Assembly: GCA_010365215.1 (NCBI GenBank)
Contig: JAAFGT010000025.1
Span: 1 to 64,000, forward strand
Direction: 5' to 3'
DNA length: 64,000 nucleotides
Source: Acidipila sp.
GTDB lineage: Bacteria; Acidobacteriota; Terriglobia; Acidiferrales; UBA7541
Position numbers and translations under genes: made by a program. Positions within the stretch are counted from its first letter, which is position 1, and every line of letters starts with the position of its first letter. Positions 43,229 to 62,639 of the stretch are shown here, one piece after another. The notes below the pieces were generated by a model, which saw only the letters and a program-made list of their open reading frames with translations, was not told where the DNA came from and searched no databases.

Positions 43229-43645
43229 ATGCCGTACAAAGATGCGAAGTACGATCATGAGTACGTTCGACCGAAGTCGCAGTTCGCCGTGAAGTCGTTC
43301 AGAACGATTTCAATTGGCGGTGGAAAGAAAATGATCGTCGGTTGTCCGCGTGGGAGTTGGAAAAAAGGTCGGTGCCGAGTTGGAATGAAGGGTGTGACTC
43401 TTCTGCGACCTAAGCTGGCGAACAACAACGGTAAGAAAGAGATGAAAATGCGCCGAAGACGCCGAAAGAGTTATTCAAAACGCCGCCGCAGCAGCCGCAA
43501 AGGCTACAGGCTGATGATGCGCAGAACGCGGCGCGGAAAGTGGACGTGCGCCCGGTCGGTCTACCGCAAGAAGCGGACGGCAAAGAAGGCGCAGACGAAG
43601 TACAAGGCACGCGGCTGGAAAATCGTCACCATCCGAAAGGCGTAA
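43229..43645 (+). CDS. Highly basic DNA-binding protein (138 aa)
   Basis: About a third of residues are Lys/Arg. The N-terminal 65 residues are a small domain (GGGKKMIVGCPRGSWKKGRC); the rest is Arg/Lys repeats (MRRRRRKSYSKRRRSSRKGY) and a C-terminal WKIVTIRKA strand. Composition fits a virion DNA-condensing protein. No enzyme motif. Confidence 0.75.
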   Translation: MPYKDAKYDHEYVRPKSQFAVKSFRTISIGGGKKMIVGCPRGSWKKGRCRVGMKGVTLLRPKLANNNGKKEMKMRRRRRKSYSKRRRSSRKGYRLMMRRTRRGKWTCARSVYRKKRTAKKAQTKYKARGWKIVTIRKA

Positions 43646-43648
43646 GTC

Positions 43649-44464
43649 ATGGCTCGACGACGCAAAAAATACACTGTGGCTACAGCACCGCGAAGTCTGC
43701 GGTTGAAGTGGCTCAAGAAAGCACAGCGCAAGCGCAAGTACCTCGCGCGTTGCCGCTCGCAGCTTGGGCTGGGCTCGCAGTATACGCGTAAGTCGTATCC
43801 GACGCCGAGACACACGGTCGCGTTTCGACCGCCGACATACCGCACGAAGACACGGTCGTGGAAGTCACCGTGGGGGACTGCTGTGCGGGTCGAACCGCAT
43901 CTCATCACGCCACGGTACGTTGCCGGGCATGAAGATTTGCCGACCATGAATCCGCAGCGCCACTCCAGCCAAGTTCGCGCGGGTGACAGGGTGACCGTGG
44001 TCGGAGAAAACGGAAAGCTTGTGACGGGGCGGGCCGTGATGCCGTCTTCGTCGGGGGGATGGGTGATCAACACTGGTGGCCGTTACGGATCACCACTGAT
44101 CGCTGACGAGAGCAACATCACGAGAGTTTCTTCTGGGCGTACTCGCGCCCGTAATCCAGAGTTACTTGTTGTGTCGAATCCGGCACAGCCTAGAAGGAGG
44201 AAGTCCGCAATGCGAAGACGTCGACGTCGGAACAGTTGGAAAGGCAATCGCCGGGGACACCGGATCGCTGCGCTGAAGGGATGGCGCAAGCGTCGTCACA
44301 GCCGGAAGGGCAGTCGCCGGGCGAGCCGCCGCAGCCGGAAGGGCAGTCGCCGCCGGGGGAGTCGCCGCAGTAAACGCTTTCGCACTTACAAAGCGGCGGT
44401 ACGCGCCCTCGGTGTCAAGGCGGGTGCAAAGGCGTGGAACAAATCGAAGCGTTCGCGCCGGTAA
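43649..44464 (+). CDS. Protamine-like protein with SH3/KOW-type domain (271 aa)
   Basis: Basic head (MARRRKKYTVATAPRSLRLK), a middle domain with VRAGDRVTVVGENGKLVTGR resembling a KOW/SH3 barrel, and an 80-residue Arg/Lys/Ser tail (RKGSRRASRRSRKGSRRRG). It should bind DNA without sequence preference. The tail is also preceded by its own strong ribosome site (see 44210). Confidence 0.75.
   Translation: MARRRKKYTVATAPRSLRLKWLKKAQRKRKYLARCRSQLGLGSQYTRKSYPTPRHTVAFRPPTYRTKTRSWKSPWGTAVRVEPHLITPRYVAGHEDLPTMNPQRHSSQVRAGDRVTVVGENGKLVTGRAVMPSSSGGWVINTGGRYGSPLIADESNITRVSSGRTRARNPELLVVSNPAQPRRRKSAMRRRRRRNSWKGNRRGHRIAALKGWRKRRHSRKGSRRASRRSRKGSRRRGSRRSKRFRTYKAAVRALGVKAGAKAWNKSKRSRR
44210..44464 (+). CDS. 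Internal in-frame start giving an 84-aa protamine-like product
   Basis: Inside the preceding gene, AAGGAGG lies 9 bases before an in-frame ATG at 44210 (codon 188). The product would be the Arg/Lys-rich tail alone, starting MRRRRRRNSWKG. Similar GAAGGAGG sites start the neighbouring Arg-rich gene at 46282, which makes real internal initiation likely. Confidence 0.5.
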   Translation: MRRRRRRNSWKGNRRGHRIAALKGWRKRRHSRKGSRRASRRSRKGSRRRGSRRSKRFRTYKAAVRALGVKAGAKAWNKSKRSRR

Positions 44465-44486
44465 ATCGGCTGAACAGTATCTTTCG

Positions 44487-45149: not shown

Positions 45150-45150
45150 C

Positions 45151-46227
45151 ATGTTCGCATTCCTTTTGAATCCCGGTGGCCGAAAAGCCAAGCGTCGTCG
45201 ACGTCGGAGCCGGGGCCGACGCATGAAGGTTTGTTACACACGCCGGAGCAGTCGCCGGTCGCGCCGTGGCCGCAAGGCCAAGAAGTACGGTCGCCGTCGG
45301 AGCAGTCGCCGGTCGCGCCGGTGGTCGTCCACGACCGCTCGTCGCATGTGGCACGGTCGCGCTTCACCGGCGCTGCGTGCTTCGCGCGCCGCGTACGCCG
45401 CTGAGCAGGCCGACCGTCTGCCGTCCGCGTCAGAACGGGGTTACCGTTCGGTCGCGAACAACGGCAAACGTCGCCGCCGGTCACGTCGCCGCAACACCAC
45501 GTGGGTGCCGCAGTTCGCCACCAATCCGTACTGGGCACCGCAGTTTGCGATGAACCCGAGCGGTGTTCTCCGCAGCGTGAAGTCGGGTTTCAATTTGAAG
45601 TTGCTGACCGGTGCGGTTCCGGTAGCGGTCGGGTTCTTCGGCAACATGGCGCTTGCCAGCACCGTTTCGAGTTACCTGCCGAGCATGCTGCAGGGAAATC
45701 TCGGACAGGCTCTGGTCGGAGCTGCGACTGCGGGATTGCTCGGATTCGCGGTTCATTTCGTTTCGCCACGGCACGCGGTTCCTGTCGCGTTCGGCGGCGT
45801 ACTCGAAGTGATGGTGTCCACGATTCGGCAGTATATCATGCCGGTTGTGTCTCATGCGACCAGCGGCATCGCCGATTACATCACACGCGGTGATGCAGCG
45901 GCGGCACGCAGTCTCGGATGCATGAACGGCGGATGCGGCGGGATGGGTCTCGTCAATGCCAGTTACGTCGCGGGGAACTGGGTGACGGGCAGGACACCGC
46001 AGTCGTTCGCGGCGATGAATCCGTTCGAACTGGGAAGCGATTTCACGCAGCCGATCACGCCGGAAGACCTGACGCCGCAGCTCGATTACGCGCAGCAGGG
46101 TTTGGAAGGTTTCGGCGATTACTTGACGGTGCAGAACGCCGCCAATGCGCGCCCTCTCGGTTATCTGGGGCACACGGGAAATGATTTCGCAATTGAAGGC
46201 ACGGCGACCGATGAACTCGGAAGCTAA
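45151..46227 (+). CDS. Arg-rich arm fused to membrane domain (358 aa, paralogue of next)
   Basis: CAGGAG is 8 bases before the ATG at 45151. Residues 10-120 are packed with Arg/Lys/Ser (KRRRRRSRGRRMKVCYTRR), partly from a 23-bp DNA repeat (45244 and 45298). Residues 150-250 hold three hydrophobic Gly-rich segments, ending VPVAFGGVLEVMVSTIRQYI. The C-terminal part is soluble, with Cys in LGCMNGGCGGMG and the tail YLTVQNAANARPLGYLG. It would tie DNA to a membrane. Confidence 0.8.
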   Translation: MFAFLLNPGGRKAKRRRRRSRGRRMKVCYTRRSSRRSRRGRKAKKYGRRRSSRRSRRWSSTTARRMWHGRASPALRASRAAYAAEQADRLPSASERGYRSVANNGKRRRRSRRRNTTWVPQFATNPYWAPQFAMNPSGVLRSVKSGFNLKLLTGAVPVAVGFFGNMALASTVSSYLPSMLQGNLGQALVGAATAGLLGFAVHFVSPRHAVPVAFGGVLEVMVSTIRQYIMPVVSHATSGIADYITRGDAAAARSLGCMNGGCGGMGLVNASYVAGNWVTGRTPQSFAAMNPFELGSDFTQPITPEDLTPQLDYAQQGLEGFGDYLTVQNAANARPLGYLGHTGNDFAIEGTATDELGS

Positions 46228-46281
46228 GCTGGGACCGTCGCGCACTGTGGCGTGAGGTTTTTTCTGGGAAGGAGGCTAGGA

Positions 46282-46941
46282 ATGGTTTACTTTTCGAATC
46301 GAAGACGCCGCAGCCGCAAGAGCCGACGGGGTGTCTCTCGCAATCGGCGTCATCGTCATTACAACCGTCGTCGGCGCTCGTCAAAGGGTCGTCGCCGGAG
46401 TCACAACCGTCGGCACCACCGGAGCCGTCGCCGGAACGGAGTGGCGATGTCGGGCGGTTCGCTGAGTTCGCCAATGTCGGCGGCGAAGTACGGGTTCAGT
46501 TTGCCGACCGCCAAAAAAGCGCTGATGGTCGGCGCAGGCATGATCGGCAACGCGTGGTTGTCCGGCTTCGTCGGGGGTTTCCTGCCGTCCGTCGTTTCCT
46601 CGACGCCGTTCAACTACGTGCTCGGTCTGGGCACCGCCGGTCTGCTCGGTCTCGGCACCGCGATGATTTCGCGGAGTGCGGCCATCCCCGTGGCCTTCGG
46701 CGGCGTCGTCCAAGTCGTCGTGGATGCGATGCGTCAGTACGTCCTGCCGCTCGTCGCTCCGTACATTCCGGGCATGCACGGCATGATGGGTCTGGATGAC
46801 TATCTGACGCCGATGAATGCCGCGAACGCTCGCCCGCTCGGCTACATGGGGGATTACTTGACCCCGATGAACGCCGCGCAGGCACGCCCGCTCGGCGACA
46901 TGAATGACGCGTACTTCACGGAAGAACTCGCGGGACTGTAA
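46282..46941 (+). CDS. Arg-rich arm fused to membrane domain (219 aa, paralogue of previous)
   Basis: GGAAGGAGG is 6 bases before the ATG at 46282; the upstream GTG extension is rejected. Residues 5-58 are nearly all Arg/Ser/His/Asn (RRRRSRKSRRGVSRNRRHRH). Residues 75-175 match the preceding protein: VGAGMIGNAWLSGFVGGF, LGLGTAGLLGLGTAMI and IPVAFGGVVQVVVDAMRQYV. The C-terminus has the repeated unit DYLTPMNAANARPLG. Same architecture as its neighbour with a shorter soluble tail. Confidence 0.82.
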   Translation: MVYFSNRRRRSRKSRRGVSRNRRHRHYNRRRRSSKGRRRSHNRRHHRSRRRNGVAMSGGSLSSPMSAAKYGFSLPTAKKALMVGAGMIGNAWLSGFVGGFLPSVVSSTPFNYVLGLGTAGLLGLGTAMISRSAAIPVAFGGVVQVVVDAMRQYVLPLVAPYIPGMHGMMGLDDYLTPMNAANARPLGYMGDYLTPMNAAQARPLGDMNDAYFTEELAGL

Positions 46942-47047: not shown

Positions 47048-47716
47048 ATGGGTGTCATGGGTCAAGCGGCTCCGGTGATTGCTGCAGCGGGAAATTTCCC
47101 TGCCAATTACCCGTATGCCTACAGTCAGCCTCTCCCGTCCGCGTTGCTGCGCCCTCTCCAGCAGCCGCTGTACGACACGGAAGTCATCCCGGCGGCAGGT
47201 ACGCCGATTGAACTCGTGTTCTTCCAGCGCCAGCTCGGTCAGACCACGGCGTTCGGCGGCATCACGAAGACGGAAGCGGAAACCAACATCCAGCAGCCCG
47301 GCCAGCTCGCGAACCCGCTGGAGTTCTCGTTGTTCGGTTTCCTGTTCGAAGTCGCGCCCGCGATGTCGCTGGCCGACTTTCAGCAGGTTTACACGGCGTC
47401 GGCGTTCATCTTCACGTACACCGGCAACCGCGTCTACCTGTCAATCCCGACGACGCGCATTCCGCAGGGAGTGAGCGCCGAAGGTTTCGCGGCAACGACG
47501 GTCGCTGCAACCACGTTGGCCGTGGTTCACAACGGCGTCGGGCACATTTCGAACTTCTACAAGTTCACCATCGGTCGCAGCGCGCTGCGCATTCGCCCGA
47601 CGGAATCGTTTCAGGCCCGCATCCGCTGGCCGAACGGTGCCCCGACGATCGCCGGAACGGCGTTTACCACGCGCCTGCGCGTCTACATCACCGGCCTGCA
47701 GTGGACGCCGCTCTGA
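47048..47716 (+). CDS. Candidate major capsid protein, beta-rich (222 aa)
   Basis: Nearly all beta: segments GTPIELVFFQRQLGQTTAFG, AFIFTYTGNRVYLSIPTTRI and TTRLRVYITGLQWTPL, with no Cys and little charge. Its isolated expression unit (hairpin leader with AAAGGAAA ribosome site, palindromic terminator downstream) suggests high abundance. The C-terminal part shares the beta module of the following genes. I infer a jelly-roll capsid protein; this is not proven by homology. Confidence 0.65.
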   Translation: MGVMGQAAPVIAAAGNFPANYPYAYSQPLPSALLRPLQQPLYDTEVIPAAGTPIELVFFQRQLGQTTAFGGITKTEAETNIQQPGQLANPLEFSLFGFLFEVAPAMSLADFQQVYTASAFIFTYTGNRVYLSIPTTRIPQGVSAEGFAATTVAATTLAVVHNGVGHISNFYKFTIGRSALRIRPTESFQARIRWPNGAPTIAGTAFTTRLRVYITGLQWTPL

Positions 47717-48192: not shown

Positions 48193-49212
48193 ATGATTCC
48201 ACGATGGATCAACGGTAAGGATGGATCGGTCTCTCTCAACGACCTGATCCGGTACGTCAAGGGCGGCTTTTTAGTCCCCGAACAATCCCGAACCCCTCTT
48301 ATTATTCCCGCTGCTGTTTCAGCCACGGTTCCGAGGTCAGCTCCGTCTCTCGTGATCGAAGCTCCTTCTGACTCAGTCGCGGAAATTTTCTCGTTCGTCG
48401 GCGAGCAGGACACAGGCGTTGATCCCGACGTGGCCGCGCGCATGACGTGTCAGATCACCGATGTCGCTTTCCGTCGCCGGTTGATGAACAAGCACATTCC
48501 GGCGCAGCATATTTTCGGCGGTGCTGGCGTGAACGGTTCCGGCGGAGTTCCCGGATACTTTCCGTTGTTTCTGCGCGAAAGTATTTTGCTGGAACAACAG
48601 CAGACGATGCTGTTCGATTTCAACAACAACTCCATCGCGGGTCCGACCGCTTTCCGGTTCATGCTGGAGCAGCGCAAGTTCCAGAGCACGAGCCTGACGC
48701 GCGATCTCGTCACCAACTACATCAAAAATCAGCGCTTCCGAAAGACGCTGCTGCAGCCGTATTTCATCGGCCAAGACGGCAATGTAAATTTGCCGGTTGG
48801 ACGGCAGGGACTGCTGACGTTCACGAACACGCGGTCGAGCTACTTCATTTGGCTCGGCACAGCGGCGACGTTCATCGTCAACGGCGCGGGTGGCGGAAAC
48901 CTCGTCGAAGGTTTTGCGGTGACCATGTTCGACGCGAAGACGCAGCGCCCACTTCAAAACCAACCCGTTGTTCGCTCGTGCTGCACCGGCAGCGCAGGAT
49001 TGCCGTACCAGAATCCGACCGGTTTGATTTTGGAACCCGACACATGCATGCAGTGGCAAGTTCAGAATCTGGTCACCGGCGGCGGAACATCCATCGACAT
49101 TTTCGTTACCTTGATCGGTGCGCTGAGCTACACGCTTGAGAATCCGTTCGAAACGCCAATGCGGGGTGTACAGGTAGCCGATCCGTCAGCGGCAAGCTAC
49201 GGAGCGCCATAA
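48193..49212 (+). CDS. Beta-rich virion protein with two modules (339 aa)
   Basis: Two similar beta-rich modules: residues 60-165 (ending MLFDFNNNSIAGPTAFRFML) and 205-318 (ending CMQWQVQNLVTGGGTS, IDIFVTLIGALSY). The same pattern is seen in the next two genes. Cys pair in RSCCTGS. No membrane segment. It fits a double beta-sandwich capsid or vertex protein, by architecture only. Confidence 0.65.
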   Translation: MIPRWINGKDGSVSLNDLIRYVKGGFLVPEQSRTPLIIPAAVSATVPRSAPSLVIEAPSDSVAEIFSFVGEQDTGVDPDVAARMTCQITDVAFRRRLMNKHIPAQHIFGGAGVNGSGGVPGYFPLFLRESILLEQQQTMLFDFNNNSIAGPTAFRFMLEQRKFQSTSLTRDLVTNYIKNQRFRKTLLQPYFIGQDGNVNLPVGRQGLLTFTNTRSSYFIWLGTAATFIVNGAGGGNLVEGFAVTMFDAKTQRPLQNQPVVRSCCTGSAGLPYQNPTGLILEPDTCMQWQVQNLVTGGGTSIDIFVTLIGALSYTLENPFETPMRGVQVADPSAASYGAP

Positions 49213-49215
49213 GCC

Positions 49216-50262
49216 ATGCTTAGACAAGTCGATAAATTTCTGCGGTACAACCCGGCGCATCGTCAATTCGAGCCGGTGCGGTGGCGGCGTGAAATTTTGC
49301 CGAGCTGGCTGACGATCCGCGACACGGATTCCGCGTTGCCGATCTCGGTTCCCGTTTCTCCGGGTACGCCACCGTTGACGATCTTTCAGCCGTACTCGTC
49401 GGTGAACGGCGCGGATCAGGGTTTCGGAACGCCGTTCGAAATGCGCTCGCTGATTTTCCAAGACGACGTCGACGGCACGGCAGCGGCGAACTTCACCGTG
49501 ATGTTGAAAGAAGTCGGTGAAGCGCGCGAGTTCATGAACAACCCGGTGCACATTCGCACGATTGCCGGAAGCGGGCAGTTCCCGGCGATTCTGCGCGAGC
49601 CGTACATGTTTTTGAGCCAGCACAACGTCAGCGCCAAGTTCGTGAAGGTGGCTGGGCCGACAACGCAGATGCGTTTCTACGCGGCGGGCGCGCAGTATTA
49701 CCCGTGGTCTCCGACGTTGATCCAGTATCCGGCGGACAAGCGCGAGCTGTTGAAGTTGCTGTCGCAGTGGATGAACCGGCGCAAGAGTGTGACGCCGTTC
49801 TGGCTGACGACCGACAACGTGCCGCAGGACGGTTTGACGCCGCCGGGCAGCGTGACGATTCCAGCCGGAGCGGGAACCGGAAAATTCCAGACCACAGCCA
49901 AGATCGGTGACGACGGTCATTTTGAAGCGTACGGTTGGTGCGCGGTTTCAACCGGAAAGTTCGCGCTCGATCTCGTTGAAACAAAAACAAAGCAGACGTT
50001 GATGAACGGTCAGGTCAGCAACGTGAACTCAGTGGGAAGTTCGTTCTTGCCAACGTTGTTCCCGTCACCGTATTTGATTCCGGCGGGGTACCGTTTGCGT
50101 TGGAATTTTTTGAACCTGACAGCAGCGCCGAACTTGGTCTTTTTCACGTTGTTCGGTCGCAAGATTTATGCGCCGATCAGTCAGGTCGCAGAGACGTTGC
50201 AACGGACGGCAGTTCCGACGCCCGCAGATTCGCCGACGATGTTGGTTCCAAGTCCGCTTTAA
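49216..50262 (+). CDS. Beta-rich virion protein with two modules (348 aa)
   Basis: Module 1 covers about residues 75-160 (NFTVMLKEVGEAREFM, FLSQHNVSAKFVKVAGPTTQ), module 2 about 235-322 (GKFALDLVETKTKQTLMN, LIPAGYRLRWNFLNLTAAPN, LVFFTLFG). A helical insert lies between them (KRELLKLLSQWMNRRKSVTP). Starts three bases after the preceding stop. Paralogous architecture with its neighbours. Confidence 0.65.
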   Translation: MLRQVDKFLRYNPAHRQFEPVRWRREILPSWLTIRDTDSALPISVPVSPGTPPLTIFQPYSSVNGADQGFGTPFEMRSLIFQDDVDGTAAANFTVMLKEVGEAREFMNNPVHIRTIAGSGQFPAILREPYMFLSQHNVSAKFVKVAGPTTQMRFYAAGAQYYPWSPTLIQYPADKRELLKLLSQWMNRRKSVTPFWLTTDNVPQDGLTPPGSVTIPAGAGTGKFQTTAKIGDDGHFEAYGWCAVSTGKFALDLVETKTKQTLMNGQVSNVNSVGSSFLPTLFPSPYLIPAGYRLRWNFLNLTAAPNLVFFTLFGRKIYAPISQVAETLQRTAVPTPADSPTMLVPSPL

Positions 50263-50274
50263 AGGGGTACGCCT

Positions 50275-51162
50275 GTGCCAAGAATTCCAACTATCATAGA
50301 CGCGCCGGATGGAACCATTCGCGGCGTCAACATCAAGCGGTTGGCGGAGATTCCCTATTTCCTGTTGGGGAACACACCGAACAACATCATCTCGATGTTG
50401 GCGAACCAATCCTCCGAACCGGTGTCGATGAGCATTTCCGGCGAAGGCCCGGCACAGTTGTTTCACCTCGCGGCGGAGCGCTTGGCTCCCTGCAAAATTA
50501 TGATTCAGATTCAGGATGGTCAGGGCGTTCGTGCGTTGATGAACAAAGCGTGCCACGTCGACACGATCTTCGGAAATTACAATGCAAACAACCGGCCCTA
50601 CACGCTGCCCGAGGCGTTGTACTTGGACGAGCAGCGTCAGGTCATCATCACAGCGACGGATATTTCCGGAGCGGATAACACGTTCCGACCTTCGCTGGAC
50701 GCGCAACGGTTGCTGACCCGGTTGGCTGATCACGACTTGTCCCGTGCTCGCGCCAAGATGGAAAAACGGCAGTACCTGTCGTTGCCGTCGTTCTACACAT
50801 TGGATAACGGCAGTTCCGTTATCGCGGCGAACGGCACAAACGTCGAGACGATCACGGTCGGCCAAGAAAGCCACTTCGACTTGGTGCAGATCACAGCAGT
50901 TTCCACCGGCGTGTTCGACATGGAGATCGTGAACATCTCCACCGGCGAGTCGATGACCGACGGACCACTGGCACAGAGCTTTCCGATTTCGAGCAATCTG
51001 TGTTCAAGCGCCAGCGCAGGATTTCCGTTCAAGTTTCATGAGCCTCTCTTTGTTGAATTGAAATCGAAGTTGCAGATCACGTTGACGGATCGTTCCGGCG
51101 CGCCCAACACGGTGTTTGTAACGTTCGGCGGAAGCAACTTGGCCGACAGAATGTGGCAGTGA
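50275..51162 (+). CDS. Beta-rich virion protein with two modules (295 aa)
   Basis: GTG start with AAGGGG upstream. Module 1 lies at about residues 40-140 (VSMSISGEGPAQLFHL, LDEQRQVIITATDISGADN), module 2 at about 195-290 (GVFDMEIVNISTGESMTD, LQITLTDRSGAPNTVFVTFG). The modules match those of the two preceding proteins in strand order and turn residues. Candidate capsid or penton component. Confidence 0.65.
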   Translation: MPRIPTIIDAPDGTIRGVNIKRLAEIPYFLLGNTPNNIISMLANQSSEPVSMSISGEGPAQLFHLAAERLAPCKIMIQIQDGQGVRALMNKACHVDTIFGNYNANNRPYTLPEALYLDEQRQVIITATDISGADNTFRPSLDAQRLLTRLADHDLSRARAKMEKRQYLSLPSFYTLDNGSSVIAANGTNVETITVGQESHFDLVQITAVSTGVFDMEIVNISTGESMTDGPLAQSFPISSNLCSSASAGFPFKFHEPLFVELKSKLQITLTDRSGAPNTVFVTFGGSNLADRMWQ

Positions 51163-52196: not shown

Positions 52197-55100
52197 ATGT
52201 TCTATCCTAAGAAACAGCGACGGTACACACGCCCTGCATCACGGGGTGTCGCGTCGTTTCTTGGCTGGTTGGGAGATAACCCAACTCGCGCACCCGTAAA
52301 CGTTGATCCGTATGAGCACTGCGTTCCGGGTGGCTTTTGTGCCGCCAATAATCCGTACGTTGTTGATCCGAGCATTAACAATCCGCACGCCGATCCGAAT
52401 AGCATTTTCACGCAGGTCACCGGCGAAGTTCCTGACGCGACTGCGGCGTGGGGTGCGGGCAGCAGTAGCGGTGGCAGCGGCGGCTCGTTTGTTCCTTCGT
52501 TCGTTAAACCATCTCCGCGTCCGGGTGGTTACATCGATCCCGTCTCCGGCGCGTTCGTTGGAACGCCTCCAGTTCAACCGTGGTCGCCACAGGTTGGTCC
52601 GATTACGCCGGTGAGCCCTGTTCTTGGGTATTCGCGGTGTCCTGACGGTAGCATTATACCGATGGGTCAGCCATGTAAGTCGTGGTGGTTTTCAGCACCG
52701 ACACCTGCTTACGTGCCGCCGGTCACGACCGTCAACGACGCACAGAGTTTCGCACCGAACGTTTCAGTAGATCGAACCCCACAGCCGTTTCAAACGGGTG
52801 GTGCCGCGCCCGCGTCAATGGTGAGTTATGGCACCGGAGATTCACGTGGTTCCGGTTACACAGCAGCGCAGGTTGCACGCATCAACGCAGCCACCGCGCG
52901 GCGTAACGCACGTGTACACGTCCGTGCGCCAAAGTATTCCGGCATTTTCAGAAACGCTCGCGCGCAAGCTAAGAACGACGCATTGGTCGCGGCGAGTTAC
53001 GCAGCGTATCCGGGATTGCAGGAAGCGATGGCGGCACAGCTACAAGCGATGATGGCTCCCGGTGCCGGGCACAGCTACGGCATGTCCGGAATCCGTCGTT
53101 CCAATTCGTTCGTGTTCCGTGGACTTCGCGGGCTCGGAGATTCGACGTACGATCCGGGCAGCAGCTCTATTACGGCGTATGTACAGCCGCTGCGGCCTAA
53201 TTTTACGCCGACGGGAATTCGGCCAACGACGCCAGCTTGGTTGCAGCCCGGAATTTTTACGCCACCTCCGATTGGTCAGCCCGGTAGCTATCCCGGCGGC
53301 GTGGTCGCGGTAAATACGCCGACAGGGATTAAGTATCTTCCACCTAATTTAGTTCCCGGTGTTGGTCCTTCGTCGGGTCCGACTTCGATTGACATCACGA
53401 CTCCGGGAGCTTTGCCCGGAACGAACGTTCCTCCAGCGCAAGGTGTAGTGCAGTCCGTTCCCGGTTGGACGGCAGCGGATTACGCTAATCTGGCAGCGCA
53501 GCAACAGGCCGCGCATAACGCCGCCGTTGCAGCGGGGTCAGGCTCGGGCACGGATGCGTTGCAGTCAGCGATCAACGCGGCGGTTGCTTCCAAGTACACT
53601 GATATAACGCCGATCAGAATTCCGTACGCCCCAGCGCGGCCTGTGTACACACCGCCAGTGTATCAACCGCCGCGAGCACCAGCAGCCATCGCGCCGAGCT
53701 ACGCGTACCAACCACCACCGGTTACAATTCCAATTGCAGCGGCGAAGCCGATCACTCCTTACGTTTTTGTGCAGCCGAAACCTGTTGCCGGAAGCGGTGG
53801 TTCACCTGCGCCGGTTCCGAATGTTCCGTATGTCGATGATAGCGATTTCGACACAACGGTTGCTAGTGGTACTACGGTTGTGTTTTTTCATGGGCCTCAC
53901 TGTGGTCTGTGCACACAACAAATGAAGAATATTACTACGCTGACGACACAACGACGCGCGGATGGATCGCAGGCGTACAAAGTTGTTGAGTACTACGCAA
54001 CTGAGAATAACGCAAACCGCGCAAAGTTTGATCAGTATGGAATTCGCGGTTACCCGAACATCATGGTTTTTAAAAATGGTGTTCCACAAACTTGGAACGA
54101 TCCAACGTTGGTGAACCCTCGTGTGAGAGCAATTGGAAATCACACGTTTGAACAAGTTAAAGCGTTAGTCGACCAAGTTGCAGCGTCAGATGTTTCAGCA
54201 CCACCACCTCCACCTCCGCCTCCGCCTCGGCAGATGCCGGTGTACGTGCCACCACCTGAGCAGACAGCGCAAGCGCCGTCAGTTGGTCCGACAGAAACTG
54301 GGTCTGGCACGCAGCACGCGACCGACAGAAACTTTGCGACGATGATTGGCGGCTCCGGTGTTACTACGATTGTCGTCTTCCATGCTAGGTGGTGCCCCCA
54401 TTGCCCCGATTTTGTTCGATATGCAAATCAGGTGGTGAGTGGTCAGTTCACTAACGGAGCGTCGTACAGAAACAACGGCGTCATGAATGGGTCTGTCAGA
54501 ATTGTTGATGTTGACATTGACGAAAGTCCAAAGGTCGCCGCAGGCGTCAATTCTGTTCCGTCGCTGAAGATGTACAAAGATGGTCAGTTTGTAACGTCGG
54601 ACATTCAGCTTCCGGATTTCACAAAACAGTATCCTCCGGGAACGGTGACTGCTCCTGTCGCGCCAATTGTGGAGTTGCCTGACCAACCATACGCGGCTGG
54701 GGCGCTGTTCGTTAAGCTGCTGCAAGCCGGTAAAAATACAGCAGCGTTAGTGTCTTCGGGGTTGGGTATTTCAAAAGCAGAAACAGCGCGCAAGAATGCC
54801 GACATTGAAAAGTTTTCTTTGCAGTACGACAAAGAGATGGCCGCGCGTGACGCGGCGCGCGTGAAGGTCGCTGCGGGGCCGTTCGCCCGTGCATACGCAG
54901 CGAAGCGCGGTGGTGGCCCCCTTGAGTTGGTTGATGACAGTTACCAGTTAGCTGGAGCACAGGCTGCGAAAGATTTGCAGACCGCAATCACGGCTGCTTT
55001 GGAAATTAAACGTGTCAGCGACGCGGGTCACGCGCCGGTAATTCCGGGTTGGTCGCCACGACCGGGCTATCCAGAAATTATGCCGGGCAATGCAAGCCCA

Positions 55101-55778
55101 GCGGTGGTGACGTTGCCGCCGGGCACCGGAGTGCCGTCACTGCGAACACCGCCGGTTGGACCGTACTATGGTTTGACATTTAACGAAGCGTTTCCGCCGG
55201 GAACGTTCGCAGTTGACAAACCTTTCATTCCTGCGGATAAGCCGTCGCAAACACCTGCGGCTACTGCGCAGTTCACGCCGGAAGAACAGGCGGCGGTGCT
55301 TAACATTTACGAAAAACTGAAAGCAGCACCTGCTCAAGTGGCAAGCGTTTACACGCAAGCGCAGCAGGGACAAGCCCAGCTTGCAGCAGCACTGCATGCA
55401 CAAGCTTTGTTGGTGCCACCCAGCTCTATTCTCAAAGATTACACAACCGATGATCGTGTCGTGAATCCGGATAACTACGGTGGAATTCCAAGCTACGCGA
55501 AGCAAGCACTCAACGATGCAAATCGGTACGCGGATAACTTTGCTACCGCAGGAAAAATTTTGCAGAAATTGCAGCAGCAGACCGGAGCATCTTCTGATTT
55601 AGGCATCACTGTTGCACAGGTCATGCCGCTGTATTTCGGCGCGAAGAAAGATTACGACTCTGCGATCACGGTTGAAGAAAAGTTGGATCGGTCGCGGCGG
55701 TTGGCCGAGTTGGGTGAAAAGATTTACTGGGCCGTGGATGCGGAGATGAAAAAAGGTCTTTACGGAAACCTTAAGTAA
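52197..55778 (+). CDS. Giant protein with two thioredoxin domains (1193 aa)
   Basis: Residues 1-540 are Pro/Gly/Ser/Ala rich and extended. A thioredoxin domain at about 548-660 has CGLC (569-572) in FFHGPHCGLCTQQMKN and the cis-Pro GYPNIMVFKNG. After a PPPPPPPPP linker, a second at about 710-825 has CPHC (733-736) in FHARWCPHCPDFV and VPSLKMYKDG. The C-terminal 350 residues are helical and Ala/Gln rich. Both active sites are intact, so it could exchange disulphides. Length, repeats and position suggest a virion component. Confidence 0.85.
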   Translation: MFYPKKQRRYTRPASRGVASFLGWLGDNPTRAPVNVDPYEHCVPGGFCAANNPYVVDPSINNPHADPNSIFTQVTGEVPDATAAWGAGSSSGGSGGSFVPSFVKPSPRPGGYIDPVSGAFVGTPPVQPWSPQVGPITPVSPVLGYSRCPDGSIIPMGQPCKSWWFSAPTPAYVPPVTTVNDAQSFAPNVSVDRTPQPFQTGGAAPASMVSYGTGDSRGSGYTAAQVARINAATARRNARVHVRAPKYSGIFRNARAQAKNDALVAASYAAYPGLQEAMAAQLQAMMAPGAGHSYGMSGIRRSNSFVFRGLRGLGDSTYDPGSSSITAYVQPLRPNFTPTGIRPTTPAWLQPGIFTPPPIGQPGSYPGGVVAVNTPTGIKYLPPNLVPGVGPSSGPTSIDITTPGALPGTNVPPAQGVVQSVPGWTAADYANLAAQQQAAHNAAVAAGSGSGTDALQSAINAAVASKYTDITPIRIPYAPARPVYTPPVYQPPRAPAAIAPSYAYQPPPVTIPIAAAKPITPYVFVQPKPVAGSGGSPAPVPNVPYVDDSDFDTTVASGTTVVFFHGPHCGLCTQQMKNITTLTTQRRADGSQAYKVVEYYATENNANRAKFDQYGIRGYPNIMVFKNGVPQTWNDPTLVNPRVRAIGNHTFEQVKALVDQVAASDVSAPPPPPPPPPRQMPVYVPPPEQTAQAPSVGPTETGSGTQHATDRNFATMIGGSGVTTIVVFHARWCPHCPDFVRYANQVVSGQFTNGASYRNNGVMNGSVRIVDVDIDESPKVAAGVNSVPSLKMYKDGQFVTSDIQLPDFTKQYPPGTVTAPVAPIVELPDQPYAAGALFVKLLQAGKNTAALVSSGLGISKAETARKNADIEKFSLQYDKEMAARDAARVKVAAGPFARAYAAKRGGGPLELVDDSYQLAGAQAAKDLQTAITAALEIKRVSDAGHAPVIPGWSPRPGYPEIMPGNASPAVVTLPPGTGVPSLRTPPVGPYYGLTFNEAFPPGTFAVDKPFIPADKPSQTPAATAQFTPEEQAAVLNIYEKLKAAPAQVASVYTQAQQGQAQLAAALHAQALLVPPSSILKDYTTDDRVVNPDNYGGIPSYAKQALNDANRYADNFATAGKILQKLQQQTGASSDLGITVAQVMPLYFGAKKDYDSAITVEEKLDRSRRLAELGEKIYWAVDAEMKKGLYGNLK

Positions 55779-57319: not shown

Positions 57320-57616
57320 ATGCCAGCAGTAAGTCTTGACACCATTTATCCGACAGATGCGTACTCCGGTCAGTTTGGTGGTGCGTATTTGGTGCCGACA
57401 CAGGAGGCTGTGTACGCGCAGCAGACCAAAAACTATTGGCTGCAGCCCGTGGACGATTCGGAGTTTGCAGATACACCAATTCCGGGGTTTAACGGTCTCG
57501 GCCAAATTCCGGATTTGTTTCCCGGAGTTTCAGCGCAGACCAAGTCGTACGTGTTGTACGGTTCGATAGCGATTGTGGCGCTGTCGGTGTTGTTCTGGAT
57601 GTCGCGGAAAAAGTAA
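57320..57616 (+). CDS. C-tail-anchored membrane protein (98 aa)
   Basis: Soluble Tyr/Pro/Gln-rich N-terminal 70 residues with FNGLGQIPDLFPG, then one membrane helix (YVLYGSIAIVALSVLFWM) ending SRKK. GAAAGGAC is 6 bases upstream of the ATG. It is the first of a series of proteins with this layout. Confidence 0.75.
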   Translation: MPAVSLDTIYPTDAYSGQFGGAYLVPTQEAVYAQQTKNYWLQPVDDSEFADTPIPGFNGLGQIPDLFPGVSAQTKSYVLYGSIAIVALSVLFWMSRKK

Positions 57617-57618
57617 CC

Positions 57619-57969
57619 ATGGGACCGGTCGCGTATGGCCCGGAAGCGCCGGGAGAGACGCTGCCGGGTTGGTCGTCTCCCGGAGCGTATAACAGCATGC
57701 CTATTGTGCCTATTGTTTCTGGTATTGCTGCGGTGCTCGGCGTCGGTGGGACGCTGTTGGCGGCTAACGCGCAGCAGAAGCTTGCTGCGCAGCAGGTGCA
57801 GCAACAGCGTTTGGCCGTGCAAGCCGCCGCCAAGTTGCAGAACGAGCAGGCCGCGTACCAAGCGCAGCAACAGCAGTACTCGACGGAAGTGTACACGCTG
57901 ATCGGAATTGGTGGAGTCGCCGCTGTGGTCTCTCTTTTGTTTTTGTACAACGCGCTGAAGAAAAAGTGA
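57619..57969 (+). CDS. C-tail-anchored membrane protein (116 aa)
   Basis: Starts MGPVAYGPEAPGETLPGWSS, a motif shared with the 58808 gene. Residues 30-50 form a Gly/Ala/Val-rich hydrophobic segment, residues 50-92 a Gln/Ala helix (QQVQQQRLAVQAAAKLQNEQ), and a C-terminal membrane helix (IGIGGVAAVVSLLFLYNAL) ends KKK. Two bases after the preceding stop. Confidence 0.75.
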   Translation: MGPVAYGPEAPGETLPGWSSPGAYNSMPIVPIVSGIAAVLGVGGTLLAANAQQKLAAQQVQQQRLAVQAAAKLQNEQAAYQAQQQQYSTEVYTLIGIGGVAAVVSLLFLYNALKKK

Positions 57970-57976
57970 GGGCGGC

Positions 57977-58303
57977 ATGAACATGATGGGAATGGCTGGA
58001 AAAAATTCAGCGCACGCACTTCTGGGCCTTCGGCCCCAGTTTCGGCACCGCATGCACGGACTCAACGCGATTGACTTGTCGACGTTGGCTAAAATGCTGC
58101 CGACGGGCGCGGTCAACGCGGCAAACACAGCGGTGCAAGCTGCGGGGTACGCGCAGACGCCGCAGTTCAGTCAGCAGGTCGATAAGGTCACCGGTGACGT
58201 CGAGACGTACTTGTTTGCACAGATCGGGCTGCAGACGATGGCGACCGTGGCTACGTTCGGAATTTTTCTGATCGCGTTGCATAAGTTCATGAGGAACAAA
58301 TAA
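57977..58303 (+). CDS. C-tail-anchored membrane protein (108 aa)
   Basis: N-terminal 75 residues polar and basic (AGKNSAHALLGLRPQFRHRM), then a C-terminal membrane helix (MATVATFGIFLIALHKFM) ending RNK. The ATG at 57977 follows GAGGGCGGC. Part of the same operon and layout as its neighbours. Confidence 0.72.
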   Translation: MNMMGMAGKNSAHALLGLRPQFRHRMHGLNAIDLSTLAKMLPTGAVNAANTAVQAAGYAQTPQFSQQVDKVTGDVETYLFAQIGLQTMATVATFGIFLIALHKFMRNK

Positions 58304-58305
58304 GC

Positions 58306-58623
58306 ATGTCAAATTTGAATGCCATGAACGAGATGTACGAGATGGACGCTATCGAGGCGCAGGATGCTACGTTGCGTCACTCCGAAGGCGGCGGCTCTGT
58401 GCCTCGTGAATGGCAGGACAAGTTTGCGATGACGCCGATCTTGCAGCAGCAGTATCCGTACGCGATGAGTGGTCTCGGGCAAGTAGACCCCACGCCGTGG
58501 TACAAGAGCCCGGCGTTCATCGCCATTGCCGGTCTTGGTATTGCTGCCGTAGCTTACGTGATCTGGGACGCGACGAAAAAACCTGAGAGCGCGCCGCGAA
58601 GTGAGTCGGAAGGGTGGATGTAA
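58306..58623 (+). CDS. C-tail-anchored membrane protein (105 aa)
   Basis: Acidic Met/Glu-rich start (MNEMYEMDAIEAQDATLRHS), MSGLGQVDPTPW before a membrane helix (AFIAIAGLGIAAVAYVIWDA), and a 17-residue charged tail (KKPESAPRSESEGWM). Two bases after the preceding stop. The charged segment after the helix is longer than in the other members. Confidence 0.72.
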   Translation: MSNLNAMNEMYEMDAIEAQDATLRHSEGGGSVPREWQDKFAMTPILQQQYPYAMSGLGQVDPTPWYKSPAFIAIAGLGIAAVAYVIWDATKKPESAPRSESEGWM

Positions 58624-58811
58624 TGTACCAAGGCCAACTGACCTACGATCCTGCGATCTGGTCGACGACGACCGGCGGGCTGCAAGTGTCGAACCCGCCG
58701 CTTCCGGGCGCGTGTCAGTGGCGCGGACACAACGTTTGTTTGTACGCTGGAATCGTGGTAGCGGCGTTGGCTGCGTACTACCTGTGGCAGCATAAAGGGG
58801 TGAAGCGATGA
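58623..58811 (+). CDS. C-tail-anchored membrane protein (62 aa)
   Basis: Start at the ATG at 58623, overlapping the preceding TAA; GGAAGGGTGG is the ribosome site. CQWRGHNVCLYAGIVVAAL carries a Cys pair before the helix, and the tail is HKGVKR. The C-x-W-x-G-H-N-x-C-L-Y pattern recurs in the next gene, so the two are paralogues. Confidence 0.72.
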   Translation: MYQGQLTYDPAIWSTTTGGLQVSNPPLPGACQWRGHNVCLYAGIVVAALAAYYLWQHKGVKR

Positions 58812-59104
58812 ACGCGTTTGGACAGACGAACATGGGACCACCGGCCCCGTATAACACACACCCCACCGACGCGGAGTTGGCGGCGATTCGCGGTCCTGTC
58901 GCTTACGGCACATACGGACCGGAAGCTCCGGGACAGACGTTGCCGGGTTGGTCGTTCCCCGGAGGCTACAACACAGGCTCCGGCGGTGGCGGTAGTTTTT
59001 GTTCGTGGCAGGGACACAACATCTGTTTGTATGTCGGCATCGCCGCCGTCGGTTTGATCGCGATGGCAATGCTTTCCAAAAAGGGGAAGGGAAAGCGCCG
59101 ATGA
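58808..59104 (+). CDS. C-tail-anchored membrane protein (98 aa)
   Basis: Contains RGPVAYGTYGPEAPGQTLPG, as in the 57619 gene, and CSWQGHNICLYVGIAAVGLI, as in the preceding gene, so it combines motifs of two neighbours. Membrane helix ends SKKGKGKRR. ATGA overlap with the preceding gene. The Cys pair may form a disulphide close to the membrane. Confidence 0.75.
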   Translation: MNAFGQTNMGPPAPYNTHPTDAELAAIRGPVAYGTYGPEAPGQTLPGWSFPGGYNTGSGGGGSFCSWQGHNICLYVGIAAVGLIAMAMLSKKGKGKRR

Positions 59105-59712
59105 GAGAATTGAACAACGAGATGGCGTGTTTGCAGCCGAGCCGCATGGGCACGTATTTCAACTGCCCGTTGCCTGACCACGGCATGGTCGGGCTGGGTG
59201 CGGGTGCTGTTACCGACGCATCGGGAGTAATTCCGATGGACAGCGGTGGAGACAAGATTTCACCTGCGCCTAGTTTTTCGTTGGACTTGACGAGTTCAAC
59301 GTTTGATCCCGGACACGCAGGGGAGCAACCGTCAGTTGCGCCCGTGTCGACGATGTTCCGGCCATGGAATCAGATTCCGGCGACGTTCGCAGAGGGCAGC
59401 GGCGGAAAGTACTATTCGTCTCCGGAGAGCGTTTCAACATCACCTGCGCCCGGAAAAGTTGCGGTGAATCCCGGAAAAGTTGCGGTGAATCCCGGAACGT
59501 CGGAGTTCAACCAGTTGGCGACGGCAGTCAGTAACATTGCCAATCCATTGATTCGTGCGCAGTACCAGATCACACTGAACCAAGCTGCAATGCAAAGAAA
59601 ACCTGTGATGGTGTCGTCTGGATTTTTCTCATCCACGCCGACGTATGCGTGGGTGCTCGGTGGTCTGGCGGTTCTTGCAGTTCTCGGCATTGCGTTTTCT
59701 GTAAGGAAGTAA
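59101..59712 (+). CDS. C-tail-anchored membrane protein (203 aa)
   Basis: ATGA overlap with the preceding gene decides the start at 59101. Ser/Pro/Gly-rich soluble region with MVGLGAGAVTDASG and a tandem 21-bp DNA repeat (59449-59490) giving GKVAVNPGKVAVNP. C-terminal helix AWVLGGLAVLAVLGIAFSV ends RK. Confidence 0.75.
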   Translation: MRELNNEMACLQPSRMGTYFNCPLPDHGMVGLGAGAVTDASGVIPMDSGGDKISPAPSFSLDLTSSTFDPGHAGEQPSVAPVSTMFRPWNQIPATFAEGSGGKYYSSPESVSTSPAPGKVAVNPGKVAVNPGTSEFNQLATAVSNIANPLIRAQYQITLNQAAMQRKPVMVSSGFFSSTPTYAWVLGGLAVLAVLGIAFSVRK

Positions 59713-59713
59713 A

Positions 59714-60220
59714 ATGGCTGACGCAGACGGAAGGTCAGTAAATTGCGGAACTGCGGAGAATCCTTCGTCGCAGTTCGTTGCTCCGTATGATCCGTGTTGC
59801 CCGAAAGGCACCAACGGATTCTACGGACCCGATAGCTGCCGTGACGGCGTGCTTGTCACCGCATCGTCGAGCAATGCTTCCGCCGCACAGGCTGCTGCTA
59901 ACGCAGCAGGACTTCAGCTACGCGCAAATCCTAACCTGTTGAGCATGCCACAGCCGGGAACGACGCCGGTTGATCCGAACAGCGGTTTGTTCGCGTCTAT
60001 TTTCAAAGCGGTGTCCGACACAGCGACGCCGTTGGTCAAAGCACAGTTGGCAATCGAAGCACAGAAAGCTCAAGCGCAGGGTAAGCCTGTGTACGTGAAC
60101 CCGGCGTTGATCCAGCAAGCGTCGTGGACGTCGAAACCCCTCAACTGGGTCTTGGTCGGAGTCGGAGTGCTTGCTGTAGGTGCCGTGCTCATGACGGCGA
60201 TGTCGGGGAGGCGCGGTTAA
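59714..60220 (+). CDS. C-tail-anchored membrane protein (168 aa)
   Basis: Cys-containing head (VNCGTAENPSSQFVAPYDPC and CRDGVL), an Ala/Gln helix, then APLVKAQLAIEAQKAQAQ-type amphipathic region similar to IANPLIRAQYQITLNQAAMQ in the preceding protein, so the two are paralogues. Membrane helix WVLVGVGVLAVGAVLMTAM ends SGRRG. Confidence 0.72.
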   Translation: MADADGRSVNCGTAENPSSQFVAPYDPCCPKGTNGFYGPDSCRDGVLVTASSSNASAAQAAANAAGLQLRANPNLLSMPQPGTTPVDPNSGLFASIFKAVSDTATPLVKAQLAIEAQKAQAQGKPVYVNPALIQQASWTSKPLNWVLVGVGVLAVGAVLMTAMSGRRG

Positions 60221-60606
60221 TGGCTGTCAGCAGTCCTTACGCGGGTGTCCCCGTGAACGACATGTACATGGCGGCGCAGCATGCGCTCGACATGTACTTT
60301 GTGCTGCAGCCAGTTGGCAGCGATACACAGTCGTCACTGCGCGACCGGATCGCGTGGACGTTTGCGCAGCAGTACGCTCCGGATTGGATGGGTGGGCTGA
60401 CACCGCAAGCGGTCGACTACGGCAACAAGCTGACTGAAGTTGCGTTTTCGATTTCACCGATGTCACGCCGAAAATCAAACGCCGAGATCAGCGTTGTTAA
60501 CGCGACCGGCGGGGTGCTGACAAACTGGTGGATGGTAGCGGGTGCGGTTGCTGTGGTCGGCGTCGTTGCTGCTTTGCTGTTGCGCAAAAAGAAACGGAGA
60601 AAATAA
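60220..60606 (+). CDS. C-tail-anchored membrane protein (128 aa)
   Basis: TAATG overlap fixes the start at 60220; the upstream extension is a shadow. Soluble helical domain (MYMAAQHALDMYFVLQPVGS, RIAWTFAQQYAPDWMG), then a membrane helix (WWMVAGAVAVVGVVAALLL) ending RKKKRRK. Confidence 0.75.
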   Translation: MAVSSPYAGVPVNDMYMAAQHALDMYFVLQPVGSDTQSSLRDRIAWTFAQQYAPDWMGGLTPQAVDYGNKLTEVAFSISPMSRRKSNAEISVVNATGGVLTNWWMVAGAVAVVGVVAALLLRKKKRRK

Positions 60607-60607
60607 C

Positions 60608-61021
60608 ATGTACTATGGTTTGGATGGTTTCGGCATGGATGATCTCGCGTCCACCGAGATGGGAAATTTTGCAGCGGTTGCTCCGGCTGCTCCGTTCTTC
60701 AACTCGGCGACGGATATTCCGGCCATCGGTCAGATCGGACAGAATTTCGCCAATCAGTACGCGCAGTATGAAATGGCGATGGCGAGTGTGCCGCTGGAGC
60801 AGCAGAAACTTGCGCTGCAACAACAGCAGGCCATCGCGATGGCGCAGGCCAACGCGAATCAAGGCATGAGTAACACGACCAAGACCGTGATCGCCGTCGG
60901 CGTCGGTCTCGCGGCTATCGGCGCGTTGATCTTCATCATGAAGCGCAAGAAGGCGCGCAACGGCGGTGGCGGCGGTTCCAGCTCGTTGTTCGGTGGCAGC
61001 GGTTGGCGGACGATTGGCTGA
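60608..61021 (+). CDS. C-tail-anchored membrane protein with Gly/Ser tail (137 aa)
   Basis: CGGAGAAAATAAC precedes the ATG at 60608. YGLDGFGMDDLASTEMG head, Gln/Ala amphipathic region (LEQQKLALQQQQAIAMAQAN), membrane helix (TVIAVGVGLAAIGALIFIM), then KRKKARN and a 20-residue Gly/Ser-rich end. Confidence 0.75.
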   Translation: MYYGLDGFGMDDLASTEMGNFAAVAPAAPFFNSATDIPAIGQIGQNFANQYAQYEMAMASVPLEQQKLALQQQQAIAMAQANANQGMSNTTKTVIAVGVGLAAIGALIFIMKRKKARNGGGGGSSSLFGGSGWRTIG

Positions 61022-61049
61022 GCGAACGTTCTCTTAAAGGGGTGATGCG

Positions 61050-61646
61050 ATGGGTTTTCTTGCTGAGTTTTCTGGACTTGATGATTTGGGTGCGGGCACG
61101 GGCGGCAGCGTCGATCTGACGAACTGCTCGGACTTGTACGCTCGTGTCCAGAAAAACGGATCGCTGATCGACACGGCGTTGAGCACCGGAAAGAAAAAGC
61201 AGTACGTGAAAAAGTGGGTCAGCAACATCAACCTGCGCTGGGGCCAGTACGTGAAGTGCCAGCAGAACACGGGGCTTGCTCCGCAGGCGATGCCGCTGTC
61301 CAACGCCGTGCTTGCGATGATTTCGACCGGGCAAGTTCCGGGGTCCAAAGCTGGAACGCAAGGCGCGATTCAAACGCCGTTAGCCAACGCAGCCGCGCAA
61401 CAACTGAACATGACCGCAATTCCCGGCGGCGGTGGAACCGTGTCGTCCAGCGAGTTCCAAAGCAACACCGGGGGCAGCGGCATCCCGTGGACAACCATCG
61501 GTATTGTCGCGGCGGTCGGCATCGGTGGATATTTGTTTCTCAAGCGTCGCCGCAAAGGCGGAAAAGTTCGTCCGCACAGCGCCAAGCGTCGTGTGCGCCG
61601 CGCAGCCGCGCGTCTGCGCCGTCGGTTCCGCCGGTCCCGGAGATAA
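61050..61646 (+). CDS. C-tail-anchored membrane protein with long basic tail (198 aa)
   Basis: AAAGGGGTGATGCG precedes the ATG. FSGLDDLGAGTGG head, a Lys-rich helix (GKKKQYVKKWVSNINLRWGQ), membrane helix (WTTIGIVAAVGIGGYLFL), and a 35-residue Arg/Lys tail (SAKRRVRRAAARLRRRFRR) that should bind DNA or lipid headgroups. It joins the tail-anchored layout with the basic-arm theme of the 45151 and 46282 genes. Confidence 0.78.
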   Translation: MGFLAEFSGLDDLGAGTGGSVDLTNCSDLYARVQKNGSLIDTALSTGKKKQYVKKWVSNINLRWGQYVKCQQNTGLAPQAMPLSNAVLAMISTGQVPGSKAGTQGAIQTPLANAAAQQLNMTAIPGGGGTVSSSEFQSNTGGSGIPWTTIGIVAAVGIGGYLFLKRRRKGGKVRPHSAKRRVRRAAARLRRRFRRSRR

Positions 61647-61649
61647 ACC

Positions 61650-62639
61650 ATGTACTACTTGAACGGTCTTGGAAAAGTTAAGTTGGGCGCTGCCGCCGTT
61701 GCTTCACCGGCGCGCATTGCTGCTGCACATCGTCAGGCCGCGCGACAGGAAGCGCGTACTGCGGCACAGGCGCGCCGAGACCCCGGATTCTCCGCTCCCG
61801 CCCCTATGTGGGACGCTGCGACACAGTCCTACGTCGGGTCGAACGTGTGGCAAGCTGCGAACCCGGTTCCGGCTCCAGCACGGACTGTGGCACAGATAGC
61901 GCGGCAGGACCGGCAGGATGCCGCTGCGAAAAATAAAGCGGATCGGTTAGCCACTGCTGCGAAAAATAAAGCGGATCGGTTAGCCACTGCTGCGAAAAAT
62001 AAATCGGATCGGTTAGCCGCGCAGCAAACTGCGTACGATGCGAAGCACCCGCACGCCGTGTTCGACGAAACAACCGGAACGTGGAGCACCGGCGGCGTGG
62101 CAGCAAAAGGCGCGGTTTGGGATGACACCACGCAGTCCTACGTGGGGTCAAACGCGTGGCAAGCGGCGAACCCGAAACCCGGCAGACCCGGCAGACCGGT
62201 AAAACAGCCAGCGGGGATTTCACCGGATGCGCAAGCCGCGTACGACTACGTCGAAGGTCTCCCCACGACGTTCTACATACCCACTCCCGATTACTCGAAC
62301 GCGTACGCGCCCGACAGCGCGGTAGCCGACGCGTCGTCGACACCGCAGGGTGGTGGTCCGTTGTTGACACCGATTGATCAGGGCGCGGATGCCGCTGCAA
62401 TGCAGGACGGTTCCGGACCACAGAATTACGATCCCAGTTACGATTTGCAGGGGATGTCCGGGCTCGATGCGTTTTTTCCGCACCAGCATTGGCCTCAGTC
62501 TGCACAGCCGCGCGCGTTCAATCGGCTCAACAATACGTTCGGCAAGCCCGGTGGGATGAGTGCGATCAGTGACAGCCCCAATCTTCTTTTGATCGGCGGA
62601 GCGTTGCTCGCTGCGTACCTGTTGTTGAAAAAGCGCTAA
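61650..62639 (+). CDS. C-tail-anchored repeat protein (329 aa)
   Basis: LNGLGKVKLGAA head; basic Ala/Arg region; a 33-bp DNA repeat in about three copies (61923-62018) encodes AAKNKADRLAT units; the segment TQSYVGSNVWQAANP occurs twice (about residues 65 and 170). PLLTPIDQGADA and MSGLDAFFP follow, and NLLLIGGALLAAYLLLKKR is the membrane helix with tail. Repeats suggest a recently expanded fibrous virion protein. Confidence 0.75.
   Translation: MYYLNGLGKVKLGAAAVASPARIAAAHRQAARQEARTAAQARRDPGFSAPAPMWDAATQSYVGSNVWQAANPVPAPARTVAQIARQDRQDAAAKNKADRLATAAKNKADRLATAAKNKSDRLAAQQTAYDAKHPHAVFDETTGTWSTGGVAAKGAVWDDTTQSYVGSNAWQAANPKPGRPGRPVKQPAGISPDAQAAYDYVEGLPTTFYIPTPDYSNAYAPDSAVADASSTPQGGGPLLTPIDQGADAAAMQDGSGPQNYDPSYDLQGMSGLDAFFPHQHWPQSAQPRAFNRLNNTFGKPGGMSAISDSPNLLLIGGALLAAYLLLKKR

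Follow-up and report, generated by a model that had tools for sequence, protein, structure and literature searches.

A run of twelve consecutive genes at positions 57320-62639 of contig JAAFGT010000025.1 encodes proteins with a soluble part, a hydrophobic helix near the C-terminus and a mostly basic tail. The stretch that we analysed, the window, is the 64-kb left part of this contig, which is virus-like, 77,182 bp long and belongs to a metagenome-assembled genome of the Terriglobia (Acidobacteriota). We consider it likely that the array products are internal-membrane proteins of a large virus of Acidobacteriota, tailless, icosahedral and membrane-containing, which is a relative of SSIP-1 and has a vertical single-jelly-roll capsid. 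Observed directly are the layout of the proteins, the serial arrangement of their genes, the link to conserved capsid-type genes and the homology of the protein encoded at 41626 to an annotated structural protein. Genes and their products are named below by their first coordinate.

Layout of the twelve-gene array

The twelve open reading frames all lie on the plus strand, have plausible starts and are separated by -4 to +28 bases (Table 1). Helices were called as the best 19-residue Kyte-Doolittle window, which is a measure of hydropathy only; these windows score between 1.52 and 2.54 and lie on the C-terminal side in every protein, the weakest being those of 61650 (1.52) and 61050 (1.57). The helix is followed by a tail of 2 to 35 residues, which is basic in eleven proteins and net neutral in 58306, where it is 19 residues long. 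A strict definition of the layout (one hydrophobic segment, at most 40 residues from the C-terminus, followed by a tail with a net charge of at least +2) was satisfied by ten of the twelve, but by none of the remaining 86 genes called in the window, nor by any of 81 host genes surrounding a relative. When the residues of the array proteins are shuffled, 0-4.5% of the resulting sequences pass. The two failures are 58306, with its neutral tail, and 57619, in which another hydrophobic stretch, near residues 29-47, scores 2.14; 57619 is also the only array protein with an N-terminal signal-like stretch.

The first-pass annotation, made from the sequence alone, had described a single C-terminal helix and a basic tail in all twelve proteins and no signal peptide in any of them; the former description is accurate for the ten proteins that pass the strict definition and the latter for all but 57619. 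It had furthermore singled out 58306 and 60608 as extending beyond the helix, which they do by 19 and 26 residues, but so does 61050, by 35 strongly basic, Arg-rich residues. Likewise, it had extended the layout to 41626 and 42608, of which the former has a weak C-terminal segment whereas the latter has two segments.

Some members of the array are paralogues (59101 and 59714, 4e-10; 57619 and 58808, 3e-9; 58623 and 58808, 6e-9; 57619 and 60608, 7e-5), and part of the run therefore probably arose by duplication. A GL[GDNS] motif recurs in seven of the twelve proteins (shuffle P about 0.01), a pattern that was found post hoc and is suggestive only, and the enrichment of GL[GDN] across structural proteins generally was not significant. 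Beyond the window, the contig encodes another protein with a C-terminal helix and a GGRK end (66289) and three with the mirror layout of an N-terminal helix followed by Lys or Arg (64905, 65645 and 67563), as in VP22 and VP23 of P23-77 and P16 of PRD1. A candidate holin of the BhlA family (9.8e-5) is located shortly downstream of the array, at contig positions 64004-64318.

Capsid-type genes and kinship with SSIP-1

The transglutaminase-like product of 41626 is a homologue of SSIP-1 gp34 (phmmer 4.4e-19, profile E-value 1.3e-33, hhalign 99.5%), with a BLASTP match of 2e-22 and 33% identity across 141 residues. The proteins of the window, of the related genome G295 and of SSIP-1 agree in the Cys, His and Asp residues that a transglutaminase-like catalytic triad would require. 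The gp34 protein is annotated as structural and has the same domain, a C-terminal helix and the end QSSK, and SSIP-1 itself has been assigned to the vertical single-beta-barrel group (PMC4958249). Judged by this homology, the window virus is a relative of SSIP-1. We do not place it in a taxon, because a packaging ATPase was not found, the array products are placed in particles on the basis of their gene neighbours, and the capsid assignment depends on a predicted fold.

When the capsid candidates were compared by sequence with annotated phages, PHROGs and the PDB, nothing useful was returned, and only comparison at the level of fold was informative; the capsid-candidate family is also absent from PHROGs. 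For 47048, AlphaFold2 predicts a beta sandwich; the model is of moderate quality, with a predicted local distance difference test score (pLDDT) of 69. In the PDB it is matched best by a Sulfolobus polyhedral virus 1 chain (SPV1; E-value 1.7e-4), followed by SH1 and, lower, by HHIV-2 and VP16 of P23-77 (E-value 0.17). The model also matches I1ZBH9 (1.6e-3), a viral protein of 211 residues that agrees with SSIP-1 gp46 in length. The size of 47048 fits a single rather than a PM2-type double jelly-roll, and at the level of fold we regard it as a candidate capsid-type protein of the vertical single-jelly-roll kind, the kind that marks the membrane-containing viruses of Singelaviria and Halopanivirales. 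A second beta-rich family (48193, 49216 and 50275) is predicted confidently in the C-terminal domain only, with mixed fold matches and a marginal similarity to SSIP-1 gp47 (0.0064; hhalign probability 5.7%). The mixed beta-sandwich matches that the fold search returned for 50275 are not taken here to prove a second capsid protein.

Searches with 41626, 49216 and 43649 located related regions in genomes of the same class (G295, G531, G658, G702 and G016, the last placed in the same family as the source) and in IMG/VR contigs, and these relatives include integrated elements in Terriglobia genomes. Common to them is a core module of a transglutaminase-like protein with a C-terminal helix, basic proteins and a jelly-roll protein. 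Iterative profile searches recovered homologues of the transglutaminase-like protein and of 47048 from every related locus that was examined, among them L018-L021; the second beta-rich family was recovered from those relatives that lie in genomes. Because at least one protein anchored by a C-terminal helix, frequently with an end such as GGRR, SKKRRR, GRKK or KRKRA, is encoded in each related region, the C-terminal anchor layout is a feature of the lineage. Among the regions compared, the window's own array of twelve is the longest run. Scans of IMG/VR with 48193 or the helicase yielded no relatives, and the IMG/VR loci L014-L017 (77-222 kb), reached via the domain of 43649, were rejected as close relatives since only a short related domain is clear. 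The related element of G658 contains a weak DUF87/HerA match (2.5e-4, under the Pfam cutoff), and the G658 provirus encodes a lytic transglycosylase (L036, 13385-13930) with a C-terminal hydrophobic stretch and similarity to PRD1 P7 (9e-11).

The contig is linear, with unclosed ends and no terminal repeat, and no tRNA was found within the window. Genes on the minus strand in the left half encode a DNA polymerase A, a helicase, a primase-like protein, ThyX, a thymidylate kinase, a methylase and an AAA protein, together with an integrase, while the structural candidates lie on the plus strand in the right half. The array is located there between capsid-type and fibre-type genes. The 1193-residue product of 52197 (Table 1) is probably a vertex or spike protein.

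Table 1. Genes of the array and neighbouring structural-type genes, with positions in the window (aa, amino acids).
Feature	Position	Strand	Properties
Transglutaminase-like protein	41626..42606	+	Pfam Transglut_core 3.4e-14; weak C-terminal helix, RKK end
Protein with two hydrophobic segments	42608..43225	+	last segment near C-terminus
Lys/Arg-rich protein	43229..43645	+	
Arg-rich protein	43649..44464	+	conserved domain TGRAVMPSSSGGWV, common to relatives
Basic N-terminus and Gly-rich hydrophobic region	45151..46227	+	paralogue of 46282 (8.5e-25)
Basic N-terminus and Gly-rich hydrophobic region	46282..46941	+	directly precedes capsid candidate; weak matches at same place in L018-L021
Candidate major capsid protein (single jelly-roll)	47048..47716	+	homologues in relatives; fold model
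Beta-rich structural candidate (first of three paralogues)	48193..49212	+	
Beta-rich structural candidate (second of three paralogues)	49216..50262	+	
Beta-rich structural candidate (third of three paralogues)	50275..51162	+	C-terminal domain a confident beta sandwich (predicted)
Protein with thioredoxin-like domains	52197..55778	+	1193 aa; domains from Pfam
Array protein 1	57320..57616	+	98 aa, helix 77-95, tail RKK
Array protein 2	57619..57969	+	116 aa, helix 91-109, tail YNALKKK; similar to 58808
Array protein 3	57977..58303	+	108 aa, helix 83-101, tail HKFMRNK
Array protein 4	58306..58623	+	105 aa, helix 68-86, 19-aa neutral tail
Array protein 5	58623..58811	+	62 aa, helix 38-56, tail HKGVKR; paralogue of 58808
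Array protein 6	58808..59104	+	98 aa, helix 72-90, tail KKGKGKRR
Array protein 7	59101..59712	+	203 aa, helix 183-201, tail RK; paralogue of 59714
Array protein 8	59714..60220	+	168 aa, helix 146-164, tail GRRG
Array protein 9	60220..60606	+	128 aa, helix 103-121, tail RKKKRRK
Array protein 10	60608..61021	+	137 aa, helix 93-111, 26-aa tail beginning KRKKAR
Array protein 11	61050..61646	+	198 aa, helix 145-163 (weak, 1.57), 35-aa Arg-rich tail
Array protein 12	61650..62639	+	329 aa, helix 308-326 (weak, 1.52), tail KKR

Several other genes on the contig deserve mention. The product of 4347-5261 (minus strand) matches ORF35 of HCIV-1 (1.8e-20), a gene of a haloarchaeal single-jelly-roll virus, and is possibly the same as a topoisomerase-like PHROG match. 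The product of 5859-7136 (minus strand) has a caspase domain (Peptidase_C14, 5e-14) and a lipoprotein-like start. Two polymerase-A-like genes are present on the minus strand at 23925-25793 and 27124-29139; for the former, Pfam gives an exonuclease domain only, while a PHROG polymerase family was matched. A perfect direct repeat of 94 bases, at contig positions 70295-70388 and 73544-73637, directly precedes two fibre-like genes that both start with MARGFRAKGGGG, and may serve cassette exchange.

Interpretation and alternative explanations

The first-pass annotation implied that the array products are part of the particle. That they are virion membrane proteins is probable, since the contig encodes a homologue of the annotated structural protein gp34 as well as a jelly-roll protein that matches vertical single-jelly-roll capsids, and from the neighbouring genes we infer that the array products are present in particles. 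As for topology and function, which we likewise infer, each product would insert post-translationally via its C-terminal helix. The variable N-terminal part would then occupy the space between membrane and shell, by analogy with P3 and P6 of PM2 and VP13 and VP10 of HCIV-1, and the different N-terminal parts could determine where on the vesicle capsomers and vertices come to lie. The short tail would terminate within the vesicle, adjoining the DNA. Many different anchored proteins may accompany a larger shell; a bolder version, which we think improbable, is that the lineage is larger than the compared membrane-containing phages and uses a dozen or more tail-anchored spacers, partly tandem duplicates, each at its own position in the shell. 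In this bolder version, the array proteins may also be substrates that the transglutaminase-like enzyme cross-links or cuts, perhaps at the GL[GDNS] motif.

Several points weigh against a virion role of this kind. A packaging ATPase of the FtsK/HerA type was not found in the 77-kb contig, whose ends are unclosed so that the gene may sit elsewhere, and an ATPase like gp40 of SSIP-1 had no match in the possibly incomplete contig. In SSIP-1 there is no convincing homologue of any array protein, the sequence of 47048 matches no known capsid protein, and its moderate model aligns to the best match with template modelling scores (TM-scores) of 0.40-0.48. That the array clusters with structural genes speaks indirectly for its products being part of the particle. 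Furthermore, the positive-inside rule would keep basic tails in the cytoplasm. Short basic tails can cross the membrane, for which the tail-anchored proteins of the ElaB/YqjD type in E. coli provide a precedent.

Cells also make tail-anchored single-span proteins, and the array could instead act in the host membrane, by remodelling the envelope, blocking superinfection or helping lysis, and be left behind when the particles exit. The BhlA-family holin-like gene shortly downstream would suit such a role, as would the lack of a virion homologue for any array product in its own right. However, the array lies between capsid-type and fibre-type genes, 41626 with the same layout belongs to the gp34 family, which is annotated as structural, and related membrane-containing viruses retain such proteins in the virion. 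We judge a purely cellular role to be unlikely. Less probable still is that the contig derives from a tailed phage (Caudoviricetes) or its satellite, with the array as accessory cargo. The PolA, the SNF2-type helicase, ThyX and the AAA protein do resemble replication genes of tailed phages, and so does a tail-spike-like protein, the sole tail-type PHROGs match, point in this direction, as does the repetitive fibre-like protein encoded at the right end. Nevertheless, Pfam and PHROGs scans of the window products detected no terminase, portal or tape measure, and the PHROGs scans no sheath, tail tube or HK97 capsid protein, whereas a jelly-roll capsid candidate and an SSIP-1 homologue are present.

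A further idea is compatible with the internal-membrane reading and would add to it, namely that the basic tails bind DNA and tether or condense the packaged genome at the inner face of the vesicle. Most array tails carry charges of +2 to +7, that of 61050 is long and rich in Arg, and very basic proteins are also encoded at 43229-46941. On the other hand, although basic tails are frequent among relatives, they are not universal there, many being only weakly basic or neutral (QSSK and NEMNK in SSIP-1, LLGVF in G295), and basic residues beside a helix are common for reasons of topology alone. We hold the idea as tentative, and contact between array tails and DNA as possible but unproved. The first-pass annotation had drawn here on the filamentous phage coat protein, which is the wrong comparison because icosahedral viruses with a membrane are what C-terminal anchors lacking a signal peptide, together with jelly-roll capsid genes, fit.

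SSIP-1 remains unclassified in current listings. The contig and its relatives in Terriglobia and IMG/VR suggest that viruses of this kind extend to Acidobacteriota and to soil, occur in integrated form and reach genomes of at least 77 kb. Should the array belong to the virion, it would make it possible to test how many membrane-anchored organiser proteins are needed for a large membrane-containing shell, and whether that number tracks the size of the shell.

Comparison with known membrane-containing viruses

The first-pass annotation regarded a serial array of this layout as unfamiliar from described viruses. The layout itself is not unknown there, as it is seen in about ten proteins of SSIP-1, in P3, P8 and gp j of PM2 and in VP13 and VP10 of HCIV-1. 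In PM2 (Corticoviridae), a phage of Pseudoalteromonas, the three proteins with a C-terminal helix have the basic tails MRGNK, KRK and KGVN, and P3 and P6 have been suggested to be templates for the registration of capsomers on the membrane (PMC6356626). Unlike the window, PM2 has a double-jelly-roll capsid protein, a genome of 10 kb and only about three such proteins, and comparison of its genes with the window proteins gave no match and no detectable sequence relation.

The predicted capsid fold of the window virus is shared with HCIV-1, SH1 and HHIV-2 (Sphaerolipoviridae), which have vertical single-jelly-roll capsids. In HCIV-1, the C-terminal helices of VP13 and VP10 lie beneath the capsid in positional roles, VP13 being assigned to a membrane complex below the pentons and VP10 being a candidate capsomer-positioning protein (PMC6414509). 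These viruses differ in having archaeal hosts and few anchored proteins, and the 31-kb genome of HCIV-1 has an annotated putative ATPase. The Thermus phage P23-77 (Matshushitaviridae) resembles the window in that its small capsid protein VP16 is among the fold matches of 47048 and that several proteins with N- or C-terminal helices, including VP15, VP19, VP20, VP22 and VP23, are encoded in its structural region. It is distinguished by a 17-kb genome, an ATPase gene adjoining the capsid genes, mostly non-basic tails and no detected transglutaminase-like gene.

Counted by one loose criterion, which omits 60608 and 61050 because their tails are long, C-terminally anchored proteins number 14 in this contig, 14 in SSIP-1, 8 in P23-77, 4 in PM2, 4 in HCIV-1 and 1 in PRD1. 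A simple scaling of this number with genome size is not clean, since SSIP-1 and this contig both have 14.

SSIP-1 has been described as a tailless particle with an internal membrane; for the window virus such a membrane is supported only indirectly, by the many single-span proteins. The SSIP-1 capsid proteins gp45 and gp46 show no sequence similarity to the window proteins, and SSIP-1 differs in its smaller genome, halophilic Salisaeta host, replication genes and less basic tails (QSSK, NEMNK), and in the arrangement of its anchored genes in scattered short groups instead of a run of twelve. The two share the gp34-type transglutaminase-like structural protein with its C-terminal helix, a similar gene order from gp34 to the structural genes, and a set of C-terminally anchored, short-tailed proteins, encoded in SSIP-1 in the structural region at 21-40 kb. 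What is new in the window is thus the unbroken run of twelve, while the layout itself is already known in SSIP-1 and PM2.

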